From positions 1 to 25,734 of the IMG/VR virus record IMGVR_UViG_3300042894_001232: 25,734 nucleotides of DNA, one strand, 5' to 3'. The notes under the pieces were generated by a model. That model did no database searches. It saw only the letters and a list, made by a program, of their open reading frames with translations, and had not been told where the DNA came from. The DNA is from a virus. The translations under genes were made by a program, and so were the position numbers. This document shows positions 4,738 to 23,375 of the stretch, one piece after another (positions within the stretch are counted from its first letter, which is position 1; the number at the start of each line of letters is the position of its first letter).

Positions 4738-5421
4738 ATGAAACACATTATGATTGCAATGCCGGCCTATACTGGCACAGTCCATATGGGGACAATGCGT
4801 TCTTTATTTACCGATTTAATCTCTTTAATCAAAAGAGGCGATAAATTTACCTTAGTTGACGATGTAGGCAATGCCTTAATTGCCGATTGCCGAGGCGTAA
4901 TTGCCACTAATTTTTACCATTCTGATTGCGATGAACTGATTTTTATAGATTCAGATGTGGCCTGGCAGGCTGGCGCTTTGCTAAAGCTAGTAGACGCGCC
5001 CGTTGATTTGGTTGCCGGAATCTATCCTACAAGAGCAGAACCCATCAGATACAATGTCCGTTATCTAGATAAACCGGAGTTATGGGCCGATCCGGTTACC
5101 GGATTATTGGAGGTTCAATGCGCACCCACGGGGTTTATGAAGATTAGTCGCAATTGCATAGCAAAAATGATTGAGGCCTATCCAAAGACCGGATTTCATC
5201 ATGAATGTAAAACAGAGCAGTTTTACCCATTATTTGATTACATTTATGATGAAAAACTAAAATACAAATGGGGAGAAGATTACTCATTTTGTATCCGGTG
5301 GAGAGAAATTGGCGGTCAAGTATGGGTTGATCCCGAAATAGAAATGGGTCACATAGGATTAAAATGTTTCCAAGGACACTTAGGAAATTGGCTTAAAAGT
5401 AGGATAATTAAACAAACTTAA
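4738..5421 (+). CDS. Glycosyltransferase, GT-A fold, phage type
   Basis: Predicted nucleotide-sugar glycosyltransferase of 227 aa. The start is taken at 4738 (MKHIMIAMPAYTG), preceded by ACGGAGA. An upstream GTG at 4711 lies inside the terminator stem and is rejected. Residues 1-12 form the first beta strand. LIFIDSDVAW (67-76) carries the DxD-type metal-binding pair D71 and D73. LVAGIYPTRA (91-100) and GEDYSFCIRW (179-188) match the later acceptor and catalytic region of phage GT-A enzymes, and H205 could be a third metal ligand. It lies between coat and fibre genes, which suggests modification of a virion protein or of the host surface. The target is not readable from sequence. Confidence 0.85.
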   Translation: MKHIMIAMPAYTGTVHMGTMRSLFTDLISLIKRGDKFTLVDDVGNALIADCRGVIATNFYHSDCDELIFIDSDVAWQAGALLKLVDAPVDLVAGIYPTRAEPIRYNVRYLDKPELWADPVTGLLEVQCAPTGFMKISRNCIAKMIEAYPKTGFHHECKTEQFYPLFDYIYDEKLKYKWGEDYSFCIRWREIGGQVWVDPEIEMGHIGLKCFQGHLGNWLKSRIIKQT

Positions 5422-5436
5422 CCATAAGGATTAATC

Positions 5437-5769
5437 ATGGATTCCCTTAAAATTCTTTCCCCAACTTATCGGTTGGACCTAACAACATCTGCATCATCCG
5501 CTCTGCAGTTAATTACTAACACACCAACCCGCGCATTTCGCGTGGCCTTGTTAAATACTGGAACTGGAACGGCAGCCATTACTTTTGGCACAACTTCTAG
5601 CAATATGGCCACCCCAGCAATTGCGTCTACTGGTGGCAGCGGAGCGTATATTCTGGCTCCAAGTATGTTTTTGCCAGTCATTATTGATTGCGGCGCACCC
5701 GATGTATTCATTAAAGCCATTTCGTCAGGCACAAACTCGCTCTATTTGACACTCGTGGCCAACGAATAA
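5437..5769 (+). CDS. Small beta-rich putative virion protein
   Basis: Hypothetical protein of 110 aa, rich in Thr, Ala, Ser and Gly, with alternating hydrophobic residues typical of a beta-sandwich. The core FRVALLNTGTGTAAITFG and the closing SSGTNSLYLTLVANE resemble small accessory proteins placed next to phage coat or fibre genes. It has no charged coiled coil, signal peptide or membrane helix. AAGGATTAATC gives a ribosome binding site, and the next fibre gene starts 10 bases after its stop. A virion role is an inference from position and composition. Confidence 0.5.
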   Translation: MDSLKILSPTYRLDLTTSASSALQLITNTPTRAFRVALLNTGTGTAAITFGTTSSNMATPAIASTGGSGAYILAPSMFLPVIIDCGAPDVFIKAISSGTNSLYLTLVANE

Positions 5770-20308: not shown

Positions 20309-20563
20309 ATGGAATGGCAAACGATTATCAACATTGGCCTTGGATGCGTTATTGCATCTATTGGCTGGTTTGCTAGAGAACTTTGGGATTCTGTCAAAGA
20401 GTTACGCAGAGAAATACACCAGGTTGAAAAAGACCTGCGTGAACTGTATGTGCGCCGTGATGATCTAAAAGAGGTCCGAATAGAAATGGCCGCACGGTTT
20501 GACAAGCTGGAAAGCATCATGGCCTCGTTTTTTGACCGATTAAACGACAAAGCGGATAAGTAA
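20309..20563 (+). CDS. Small N-terminal-membrane coiled-coil protein
   Basis: An 84-aa protein with one N-terminal membrane helix (residues about 5-22, TIINIGLGCVIASIGWFA). A highly charged coiled coil follows to the end (ELWDSVKELRREIHQVEKDL, then DDLKEVRIEMAARFDKLES). The Arg/Lys residues next to the helix suggest that the coiled coil faces the cytoplasm, unlike a spanin. It lies in a block of small membrane genes before the holin, so a lysis-control or accessory role is possible. It starts 2 bases after the previous stop and overlaps the next gene by TAATG. No confident family. Confidence 0.68.
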   Translation: MEWQTIINIGLGCVIASIGWFARELWDSVKELRREIHQVEKDLRELYVRRDDLKEVRIEMAARFDKLESIMASFFDRLNDKADK

Positions 20564-20778
20564 TGGATGTGCCATATAACAATGGCAAAATTAAGATAGG
20601 TTGTGCTTATTATTTAAACCCGTTGAGGCCAAAATACATTGAGTACGATGAGGATATGCTGGAGTTGCAGAGTTACCTAATTCACGACCCACGCATCTTA
20701 AATCAACAGTATTGGCTTAAACGGATTTATATATTAATCCTTTTATTTGTATTAACCATTATGCTAATGGCCCACTAA
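20563..20778 (+). CDS. Small C-terminal-membrane protein
   Basis: A 71-aa protein with a soluble N-terminal half rich in Tyr, Asp and Glu (YNNGKIKIGCAYYLNPL, YIEYDEDMLELQ). A single C-terminal membrane helix is seen at about residues 52-69 (IYILILLFVLTIMLMA). It overlaps both flanking small genes by TAATG, so the three are probably translated together. Function is unknown. Tail-anchored topology and position next to holin suggest a membrane role. Confidence 0.65.
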   Translation: MDVPYNNGKIKIGCAYYLNPLRPKYIEYDEDMLELQSYLIHDPRILNQQYWLKRIYILILLFVLTIMLMAH

Positions 20779-20951
20779 TGTTAATGACCATACTCAATAT
20801 GTTTGCTTTATTTGTCGCAATTTTTGCGGTCATTATTTTTGCGGTCTTATTTGCTTTCTTCTTATTTATTATGTTTGCCTGTGTCTGTATTGGCTGGAAA
20901 GAAATTAACTCAACGCCAATTGCGGATATATGGCAAAGACTAAAAAAATGA
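20778..20951 (+). CDS. 57-aa membrane protein
   Basis: A short frame opening at the ATG overlapping the previous stop (TAATG) and running 57 codons to TGA at 20949-20951. The N-terminal ~37 residues are almost wholly hydrophobic (MLMTILNMFALFVAIFAVII, continuing FAVLFAFFLFIMFA). A short polar tail follows (WKEINSTPIADIWQRLKK). It fills a gap between genes exactly and keeps the coupled pattern, so it is likely real. It could be a holin- or antiholin-like peptide; the sequence alone does not decide. Confidence 0.68.
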   Translation: MLMTILNMFALFVAIFAVIIFAVLFAFFLFIMFACVCIGWKEINSTPIADIWQRLKK

Positions 20952-20957
20952 TGATAT

Positions 20958-21410
20958 ATGTCAGACGAACTAGGGTTATCGGCTGGTGCCAAGGGTATCA
21001 GCGAAGGGATTAAGACAGGCAGGGAAGCTGGTCGTGAGATTGGCAAGAACATTGAAGAAGTACAGAAAGAAGCGGTTGATGTAGCCAGGCAGCAAGCAAA
21101 TGCAAAGATTCGTGAGCGCAGGGAAACAGAGTTTAAGAAAGAACGGGCTATATTTAAAGCCCTTGAAGAATACAAACACCGGAAAAAGATTTCGGATGAG
21201 GAATATCAGCTGCGCATCGACTTTATTAAGAAGTATGGCACCAAAGAATGGCAGCGATTAATAGATATAAAGATCGAAATTGAGCGGCTTGAGAAAGAAG
21301 ATAAGAAGTATTTTGACGCAGAGTTGTCAAAGGTTAAATGGGTGCAGTTTTGGTGCTTTTTAGCAGCTGGCTGGATTGCTTATTTTATAGTATGGGGCGG
21401 TAAAAAATAA
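20958..21410 (+). CDS. Coiled-coil protein with C-terminal membrane anchor
   Basis: A 150-aa protein. The Gly-rich N-terminus (GAKGISEGIKTGREAGREIG) passes into a strongly charged coiled coil (about 30-75) and a second helical segment (80-120, rich in Lys, Glu and Ile). One membrane helix lies at about residues 127-146 (KWVQFWCFLAAGWIAYFIVW), with GGKK at the end. Most of the protein would be cytoplasmic with a C-terminal anchor. It precedes the 205-aa membrane protein, coupled by TAATG. Role unknown; it could tether a phage complex to the membrane or assist lysis timing. Confidence 0.66.
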   Translation: MSDELGLSAGAKGISEGIKTGREAGREIGKNIEEVQKEAVDVARQQANAKIRERRETEFKKERAIFKALEEYKHRKKISDEEYQLRIDFIKKYGTKEWQRLIDIKIEIERLEKEDKKYFDAELSKVKWVQFWCFLAAGWIAYFIVWGGKK

Positions 21411-22027
21411 TGGCCGATGAAAAACTAAACGCCAACGACACGTTATCTAAGGTATTGGCGTATGTAGACTCCCCATTTAAACTGTTTGCAGTTGTCTTGA
21501 TGGCTGCTTTTGCGTTTGCTGGATACATTATTTATGACCACCAAGAGTTAATTGTTGGCACCTATAAGGAAAGCCAAAAGTTACCAAGTATTGCCGAAGA
21601 TAGGGTAGATGATGCTGCAGTTCATTTATTTAAAACAACTGACGCAACCGTTGTAGCAATATTTAAAGTAAACCCGTTGTTTGGCACTAGAGTACAGTAC
21701 CGAGCCTATACAAAGACTGGTCGGGATAAAACCAATGATGGGCTAGATGTTGGGTTGTTTACATCTAATCAAGCAAATAATCACGATGTCATTTCTTTAA
21801 TGTCTGGCAATGTACCATGCGGAGAATATAAGGCAGCACAGTCAGAAATTGGACTTTGGTATCTTGAAAAAGGGATGACCTTTGGCTGTAGAATTGGTGT
21901 ACCCCCAGACCCCAGTAGGTTTGTAGGGCAGATTACCGTTGGTTGGGATAAACCCCCAGCCGATTTAGAGCAAACTAAAGCAATGCTTTTTATTGCTGCA
22001 ACCATGTTATCAAGGAGCAAAAAATGA
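21410..22027 (+). CDS. Single-span membrane protein with possible GAF-like domain
   Basis: A 205-aa protein with one membrane helix at about residues 24-42 (KLFAVVLMAAFAFAGYIIY). A mixed alpha/beta domain of about 160 residues follows. Two cysteines, C137 (MSGNVPCGEY) and C160 (MTFGCRIGVPP), precede FVGQITVGWDKPP, a layout that recalls small GAF/PAS-like folds but is not diagnostic. The side of the membrane is not certain; two Cys would suit an exported disulphide. It is coupled by TAATG upstream and ATGA to holin. Unknown function, possibly lysis regulation or superinfection exclusion. Confidence 0.66.
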   Translation: MADEKLNANDTLSKVLAYVDSPFKLFAVVLMAAFAFAGYIIYDHQELIVGTYKESQKLPSIAEDRVDDAAVHLFKTTDATVVAIFKVNPLFGTRVQYRAYTKTGRDKTNDGLDVGLFTSNQANNHDVISLMSGNVPCGEYKAAQSEIGLWYLEKGMTFGCRIGVPPDPSRFVGQITVGWDKPPADLEQTKAMLFIAATMLSRSKK

Positions 22028-22530
22028 TGGATACCTTATTAGGACTTCTTAAAGGAGTTGCTCCTGTTTTAGCTACTGCTGTTGCTGGCCCAGCTGGTGG
22101 CGCTGCCGTAGGTTGGATTGCAAGCAAACTAGGAATTGATGACGCTACCGTAGAAGGGGTTACCCAGGCTTTAACCGGCAACCCTGAAATGGCCTTAAAA
22201 CTTAAAGAATTAGACCTAGAGTACGCAAAGTTAGAAGTAGCTGATCGCGACTCTGCCCGCCAGGCTTATGCTGCGGTGGCCACATCTCAATATGCAACCA
22301 AGCTAGATAAGTTGGTTGTACCTTTGTTAGCCCTTGGGGTTGTGGGTCTGGCCTTTGTATTAATAGGTGTATTGATGTTTGTTGATACGCCAGACAACCA
22401 GCAACAATTGGTTATTTTTGCTCTTGGGTTTATAACCTCGGCTGCGGGACAAGTTCTATCTTTTTACTTTGGGTCCAGCCAAGGCAGCAAAAACAAAACA
22501 GAAGAAATGAAAGGGATGATTAAAAAATGA
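22024..22530 (+). CDS. Holin, 3TM type
   Basis: A 168-aa membrane protein resembling the 3TM holin family. An amphipathic Gly/Ala/Val N-terminal helix (about 7-34, APVLATAVAGPAGGAAVGWI) precedes a charged linker with DRDSARQAYA (74-83). Two clear membrane helices follow (about 96-120 and 128-150) with a polar Lys-rich tail. It would permeabilise the inner membrane to release the endolysin. The ATGA overlap with the previous gene offers two adjacent ATG starts (22024, 22027). Its stop overlaps the endolysin start by ATGA, a typical lysis pair. Confidence 0.85.
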   Translation: MMDTLLGLLKGVAPVLATAVAGPAGGAAVGWIASKLGIDDATVEGVTQALTGNPEMALKLKELDLEYAKLEVADRDSARQAYAAVATSQYATKLDKLVVPLLALGVVGLAFVLIGVLMFVDTPDNQQQLVIFALGFITSAAGQVLSFYFGSSQGSKNKTEEMKGMIKK

Positions 22531-22961
22531 TTACTCCACTTACCCTCCACTTTAGCTTAGAGGAGTTGACCACTACTGACCACCGGCAGTTTGACAATAC
22601 GCCAAACCCCGATGAATTGGCCAACTTAAATCGACTAGCTAAGTTCTTAGAACAGGTCAAAACCGTATTAGGCGGTAAACCTGTAATGATCAACTCTGCC
22701 TTTAGGTCAGAAGCCGTGAATACAGCCGTTGGAAGTCGCAATACCTCACAACACCGGATTGGGTGCGCAGCCGACATTCGTGTGCCAGGCATGACTCCCG
22801 ATGAGGTTGTTAAAACTGTGATGGCTGCGGGACTTGGTTATGACCAGATTATTAGAGAGTTTGACCGCTGGACCCATATCTCAATCCCTAATAACCCAGA
22901 GGATAAACCTAGGCAACAGGCATTGATTATTGATCGCAGCGGGACTCGTCCATACGCGTGA
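22527..22961 (+). CDS. Endolysin, peptidase M15 family
   Basis: Zinc peptidase cutting peptidoglycan cross-links, 144 aa. INSAFRSEAVNTAVG (55-69) is followed by SQHRIGCAADIR (74-85), with zinc ligands H76 and D83. WTHISIP (115-121) supplies H117, and E111 in IIREFD is the likely catalytic glutamate. This set matches the M15A single-domain type. No signal peptide or SAR helix is evident, so release depends on the adjacent holin. Start in ATGA overlap with holin. The plus-strand late genes end here, followed by a terminator. Confidence 0.9.
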   Translation: MITPLTLHFSLEELTTTDHRQFDNTPNPDELANLNRLAKFLEQVKTVLGGKPVMINSAFRSEAVNTAVGSRNTSQHRIGCAADIRVPGMTPDEVVKTVMAAGLGYDQIIREFDRWTHISIPNNPEDKPRQQALIIDRSGTRPYA

Positions 22962-22965
22962 TACA

Positions 22966-23139
22966 CTAAATATTGATTTCGTTGGTTTCCTTTAAACTCT
23001 CTGGCCCTACCTCTTTGGTGGGGCTCTTTTTTTCATAGGTTATAGCATCTGTAAACCCCTCACGGTACGCATTGTGAACGGCCTCCAGGTGCCATAAAAC
23101 TAACAAAACCGCACCGACAATCAGTAAAGCGGGGCGCAA
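22966..23139 (-). CDS. Probable 57-aa single-span membrane protein, TTG start
   Basis: An open frame of 57 codons not preceded by any in-frame ATG or GTG. A TTG at 23139 lies about 7 bases after GGTGGA, a fair ribosome binding site inside the lipoprotein gene. The product has an N-terminal membrane helix (MRPALLIVGAVLLVLWHL), then a charged tail (YREGFTDAITYEKK and on to ESLKETNEINI). It overlaps the lipoprotein 3' end by 19 nt. Lipoprotein plus single-span protein is the composition of a two-component spanin, but size and order are atypical. The plus-strand terminator lies inside it. Confidence 0.5.
   Translation of the reverse strand: MRPALLIVGAVLLVLWHLEAVHNAYREGFTDAITYEKKSPTKEVGPESLKETNEINI
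23004..23033 (+). terminator. Intrinsic terminator of late (+) transcription
   Basis: A stem of 8 bp, GCCCTACC (23004-23011) with GGTGGGGC (23017-23024), includes one G-T wobble and has a TCTTT loop. TC and then seven T (23027-23033) follow. It sits 43 bases after the endolysin stop, between convergent genes. The minus direction lacks a T-tract, so it should act only on plus-strand transcripts. Confidence 0.85.
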
Positions 23140-23375
23140 GTGACATCCACCACAACATCGCGGGTCATACCGCCGACTTTGCGCTTGCCGTAAATGACTA
23201 TGGCTCTAGTCTTAGAAACCTGGCAGTCCTGAATGGCCGTAACCACCTCAAGCCGGCTCATGGAATGAACTTTATCGTCTACAACCAGCATCTGCTCTGG
23301 CATGGCGTTTTTGTCGGGCAGGATGCCGCAACCACTTAAAATTAGTAAACAAACACCGGCTATGATCATTTTCAT
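23121..23375 (-). CDS. Small lipoprotein
   Basis: An 84-aa exported lipoprotein. A Lys-containing start and a hydrophobic core end in the lipobox LSGC (C16), so it should be lipidated and held in the periplasm. Two later Cys (C50, C80) could form a disulphide. The mature part has the TRAIVIYGKRKVGGMTRDVV segment. The start is well supported by AGGAGGG 4 bases upstream. It lies last-but-one in the recombination operon. Candidate for an outer-membrane spanin subunit or a superinfection-exclusion lipoprotein; neither is proven. It lacks the Pro-rich character of Rz1. Confidence 0.82.
   Translation of the reverse strand: MKMIIAGVCLLILSGCGILPDKNAMPEQMLVVDDKVHSMSRLEVVTAIQDCQVSKTRAIVIYGKRKVGGMTRDVVVDVTCAPLY

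Follow-up and report, generated by a model that had tools for sequence, protein, structure and literature searches.

The window, a stretch of 25,734 nucleotides (IMG/VR virus record IMGVR_UViG_3300042894_001232, positions 1 to 25,734), comes from a small freshwater phage. It contains a row of five genes for small membrane proteins of 84, 71, 57, 150 and 205 aa, here called p84, p71, p57, p150 and p205. The row is followed by the holin gene p168 and by the gene of a peptidase M15 endolysin, in which neither a signal nor a transmembrane (TM) segment was detected. The initial annotation had listed the five open reading frames at the coordinates in Table 1, and we confirmed them there. Most starts overlap the previous stop, as had been noted: the p84/p71, p71/p57 and p150/p205 junctions are TAATG overlaps (at 20563, 20778 and 21410). 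The p205/p168 junction is an ATGATG overlap (22024-22027). The p57/p150 junction is the sole non-overlapping one of the five, with a 6-nt gap at 20951/20958.

Table 1. Features of the window and of compared loci (L numbers denote other loci)
Feature	Position	Strand	Description
p84	20309..20563	+	N-terminal TM (predicted N-out/C-in) and cytoplasmic coiled-coil-like domain; PHROG 462
p71	20563..20778	+	C-terminal TM anchor
p57	20778..20951	+	N-terminal two thirds hydrophobic, then a short basic tail
p150	20958..21410	+	C-terminal TM after a predicted cytoplasmic helical domain; candidate regulator
p205	21410..22027	+	T4-T-like holin candidate, PHROG 31287; amphipathic N-terminus, one TM, GAF-like outer domain, invariant C137 and C160
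p168	22024..22530	+	3TM holin of GTA/TeaA type by profile; phrog_1544
Endolysin	22527..22961	+	peptidase M15, PF08291 (E = 4e-17)
Lipoprotein gene (84 aa) and overlapping 57-aa TM gene	22966-23139 and 23121-23375	-	converge on the endolysin gene
Proteins in the p205 slot	L122:8450-8710; L095:8450-8800		86 aa (1 TM) or 116 aa (2 TM); cassettes otherwise matching
Secreted two-Cys gene	L249:5642-5914; L270:5630-5905; L282:5642-5962; L266:5648-5992; about 25 more loci		overlaps the stop of the sister-clade p205-type gene
Tandem p205-type genes	L265:3553-4158 and 4902-5654; also L267		two copies

Compared with relatives, the five genes had median dN/dS values of 0.052 (p84), 0.073 (p71), 0.114 (p57), 0.040 (p150) and 0.072 (p205), and third codon positions carried 60 to 74% of the changes. 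The low dN/dS, 0.04 to 0.11, together with the third-position bias, therefore indicates that all five are real genes. Their topologies are broadly those first described, except that the N-terminal helix of p84 and the C-terminal helix of p150 are weaker: averaged over 19 residues, the Kyte-Doolittle value passes 1.6 only in p71, p57 and p205. The earlier view that none of the five belongs clearly to a known lysis family also held in scans of Pfam, NCBIfam and PHROGs. No Pfam or NCBIfam family attained its cut-off with any of the five products. The PHROGs scan placed p205 in PHROG 31287 and p84 in PHROG 462, neither of which is a named lysis family, and these scans yielded nothing usable for p71, p57 and p150.

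We then focused on p205. Its profile match to PHROG 31287 has an E value of 4e-15. This family is listed as "unknown function", and its members include proteins from Citrobacter phage Ci1, Edwardsiella phage GF-2 and Cronobacter phage S13, to which p205 is only 18 to 21% identical and whose cassette differs. The p205 family alignment has ten invariant positions, including C137, C160 and P165-P166 in the outer domain. Hydropathy places a TM segment at residues 23 to 41, followed by about 160 residues; the orientation is inferred. An AlphaFold2 model (pLDDT 65) contains a helix at residues 8 to 18, a TM helix at 22 to 43 and an alpha/beta outer domain. The N-terminal helix is amphipathic, with a hydrophobic moment of 0.45, which 3% of shuffles attained; that of phage T4 holin T is 0.51.

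Foldseek matched the p205 model to all solved periplasmic domains of T4 holin T (PDB 6psk, 6px4 and 6pxe) with E values of 4.8e-5 to 5e-4 and a TM-score, normalised to T, of up to 0.69, although plain GAF domains match it equally well. Among the predicted viral structures of BFVD, the matches at E<=1e-3 that are named by function are T/class III holins or GAF-domain proteins. A search of the p205 sequence against PDB sequences gave chance matches only, and the known T-holin families (Pfam and phrog_860) did not recognise p205 up to an E value of 1. In an early profile comparison with T holins that used 12 sequences, several shuffles attained the score. With 38 diverse sequences, the outer domain scored above 100 of 100 column shuffles, and the N-terminus and TM segment aligned with T over 48 gap-free columns.

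T4 holin T, a class III holin, begins with an amphipathic helix in the cytoplasm, which is essential; a single TM segment and a globular outer domain for antiholin control follow (PMC12162936). This domain layout of T has been described as unique among holins (PMC12162936). p205 resembles T in size, in its amphipathic N-terminus, in its single TM with a presumed N-in orientation, in the modelled fold of its outer domain and in a weak collinear profile similarity. In addition, p205-type genes adjoin the endolysin gene, as in T5-like phages. However, p205 lies outside the T sequence families, in the separate family phrog_31287. Its second cysteine is placed elsewhere, and the cysteine spacing differs in the sequence comparison. 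Moreover, the window has no RI gene, and a second holin comes after p205.

The position of p205 homologues in isolated phages supports a holin role. Edwardsiella phages GF-2 and Edno5 have the order Q, p205 homologue, lysozyme and Rz-type gene, and a lysozyme gene and an Rz/Rz1-like pair likewise come after the homologue of Vibrio phage IKEMa6-1. In all three of these lambdoid-type cassettes the lysozyme gene starts before the p205 homologue ends. No N-terminal TM segment was seen in the three lysozymes, which are soluble. A scan of the + strand found no TM open reading frame before the lysozyme other than the p205 homologue, and in GF-2 the lysozyme gene is followed by one for an Rz-like spanin (phrog_312, E = 2e-46). 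Therefore, as the sole TM gene before lysozyme and Rz, the p205 homologue occupies the holin position, with no adjoining alternative.

Scans of IMG/VR returned 467 candidate relatives of p205 and 306 of p150. We mapped the families onto the fetched loci. Among 127 distinct IMG/VR contexts, the gene after the p205 type was a 3TM holin in 90, a secreted antiholin-like gene in 28 and an endolysin in 3; in two of the last three, the 3TM gene comes after the endolysin. In most loci p205 lies directly 5' of the 3TM holin gene and overlaps it. Some loci are unusual in other respects. Two carry p205-type genes as a tandem pair (L265 and L267), with dicarboxylate-transporter-like and aspartate-racemase-like genes, so named from sequence, flanking the first copy. 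L174 (PQ492659.1, Limnohabitans phage DC33) is filed under Inoviridae and is probably misclassified; its 39-kb genome and its endolysin gene resemble those of a tailed phage. The sole bacterial-genome match of the p205 family is L286 (CAIRTT010000055.1), an Armatimonadetes MAG contig that is possibly a co-binned phage contig. As one match in the genome-contig scan for hosts, it is uninformative about the host.

By profile, p168 is a 3TM holin of the GTA/TeaA type. It is 38% identical to the "Holin of 3TMs" of Phage DSL-LC04, and hhalign compared it with a PF11351-matching family at an E value of 5e-26. A direct hmmscan of p168 alone did not match PF11351 (GTA_holin_3TM); the protein falls into phrog_1544. 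Holin activity has been tested for a holin of this kind, TeaA of phage ICP1 (PMC7182436). The cassette thus probably encodes two holins that differ in class, the T-type p205 and, next to it, the TeaA-type p168. We recognised no spanin on the + strand of the cassette. On the - strand, a conserved lipoprotein gene and an overlapping TM gene (Table 1) match spanins very weakly (E = 0.05 to 0.3); they could be the spanin of this cassette. Labels such as Spackle or Cor could be attached to the neighbours only from weak matches.

We conclude that p205 most likely works as a T4-type holin, with a probability of about 0.7. It is T-like by layout, modelled fold and position, and it is outside the known T sequence family. 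The link to lysis that had been proposed for the five proteins is thus supported for p205 by its fold, its architecture and the synteny, and by the fact that its homologues in other phages occupy the holin position. In the mechanism that we infer for hole formation, its regulation and the cooperation of two holins, p205 would sit N-in via its one TM helix and oligomerise. Once it is triggered, its N-terminal amphipathic helix would aid the opening of a hole that lets out the cytoplasmic endolysin. The GAF-like domain outside the membrane would be the regulatory part; its T4 counterpart binds the antiholin. p168 would serve as a second holin. p150 and p84 would have accessory or regulatory functions on the cytoplasmic face, and any roles of p71 and p57 are likewise conjectural.

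Because a recognised holin, p168, adjoins it, p205 is not necessarily the protein that makes the holes in this phage. It might instead be an antiholin or a lysis-timing sensor for p168: its GAF-like outer domain would detect a signal from the envelope, and its TM helix would restrain or trigger p168. The overlap with the 3TM holin gene in most loci fits this proposal, as does the fact that GAF domains are often sensors. The p205 slot also alternates among small membrane proteins, and the 3TM holin is always retained there. However, GF-2, Edno5 and IKEMa6-1 have no 3TM holin beside the lysozyme to regulate. p205 also accompanies several divergent 3TM types, which argues against a specific pairing, and in T4 the same architecture is that of the holin itself. 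We therefore consider a purely regulatory p205 unlikely.

A role for p205 outside lysis, as a GAF-fold sensor anchored in the membrane or as the product of a host-takeover gene located in the late region by chance, would agree with the GAF-like fold. It would also agree with Cronobacter phage S13, where the p205 homologue lies among head genes and not beside an annotated lysis gene, which speaks against a holin. But start overlaps with endolysin or holin genes recur in many unrelated phages, and the homologues hold the holin position in lambdoid-type cassettes, so that we regard this role as very improbable.

From the comparison of the loci, we interpret the region as the 5' portion of a late lysis cassette with exchangeable parts, which consists here of p84-p71-p57, p150, p205, the 3TM holin p168 and the M15 endolysin. 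The first position is held by a zinc-ribbon gene, by p84-p71-p57 or by a small XhlA-like gene, and the second by a p150 variant. The third holds p205, p86 (1 TM) or p116 (2 TM), which are unrelated membrane proteins. One of several 3TM holin types comes fourth, and an endolysin of the M15, GH24, GH19 or GH108 class comes fifth (the classes other than M15 were read from the sequences). The cassette is therefore a mix-and-match one, common to many environmental phages. The 116-aa protein found in the p205 slot has a marginal holin match (E = 0.05).

The initial annotation had looked to conserved gene order. The order p84-p71-p57-p150 is indeed kept in about 30 related loci, but the five-gene set is not a conserved unit. 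p71 and p57 are restricted to their own phage group in the IMG/VR loci, and most loci with p150 and p205 lack p84, p71 and p57. p150-type genes are mobile and, in many phages, lie just 5' of a gene of the p205, p86 or p116 type, and relatives of p84 lie directly 5' of p205-type genes in L249, L281 and L283. Even among close relatives that retain p84-p71-p57-p150, p205 is swapped for p86. Since the trio, p150 and p205 differ in range, and since p205 is exchanged, the five genes are not one unit. They form three modules: the phage-group-specific trio p84-p71-p57, then p150, then p205. The proposal that the five proteins make up a single complex in the membrane, with a role in lysis timing or superinfection exclusion, draws on the gene overlaps and on the order kept in the close relatives. 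But the trio is limited to a single phage group, p150 and p205 recur without it, and p86 replaces p205 in otherwise identical cassettes, so that this is the least credible reading. Nothing directly supports superinfection exclusion; at most, a T4-type holin would tie superinfection to lysis inhibition, via an antiholin.

In a sister clade, some of whose contigs are as long as 262 and 345 kb, the p205-type gene overlaps one that encodes a secreted protein of 90 to 114 aa. This protein starts with a signal sequence and has a four-helix domain (model pLDDT 87.5) and two invariant cysteines. Like the T4 antiholin RI, it is small and helical, has a signal sequence and two cysteines, and is coupled to a T-like gene. 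However, Foldseek with its model returned no RI structure among the 50 matches listed and none of 62 at E<=0.001. No sequence family matched the protein either. We thus call the protein antiholin-like by its placement and do not claim homology to RI. A secreted antiholin-type gene was looked for in the window and was not found.

Among 104 contexts with adequate flanks, 68 had only a p150 type upstream, 22 only the secreted gene downstream, 1 both and 13 neither, a near-exclusion that is confounded by descent, as the secreted gene marks one clade. Because the two types almost exclude one another, p150 is a candidate regulator. In its predicted topology, a single TM with N-out/C-in orientation, p84 matches the Mu releasin gp25 (DUF2730) and, like it, lies near the endolysin (PMC9239132). 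However, p84 has no DUF2730 match and no sequence relation to gp25, and the endolysin here is not a SAR endolysin.

Among the papers searched, we found no earlier description of PHROG 31287 as a holin. Tentatively, PHROG 31287 may be a second, independent T4-type holin family that is common in environmental phages (contigs of about 34 kb to 345 kb) and usually has a 3TM holin as its partner in two-holin lysis. One of its clades would be coupled to a secreted two-Cys antiholin that is not homologous to RI, which would imply lysis inhibition of the T4 kind in natural waters. Very few phages have had their lysis inhibition worked out. If this proposal is true, a large environmental T-like family, partly coupled to an antiholin-like gene, would make the spread of lysis inhibition and of two-holin timing in natural waters testable. 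PHROG 31287 would gain a function, and order would be brought to a region that usually goes unannotated in the genomes of many environmental phages.
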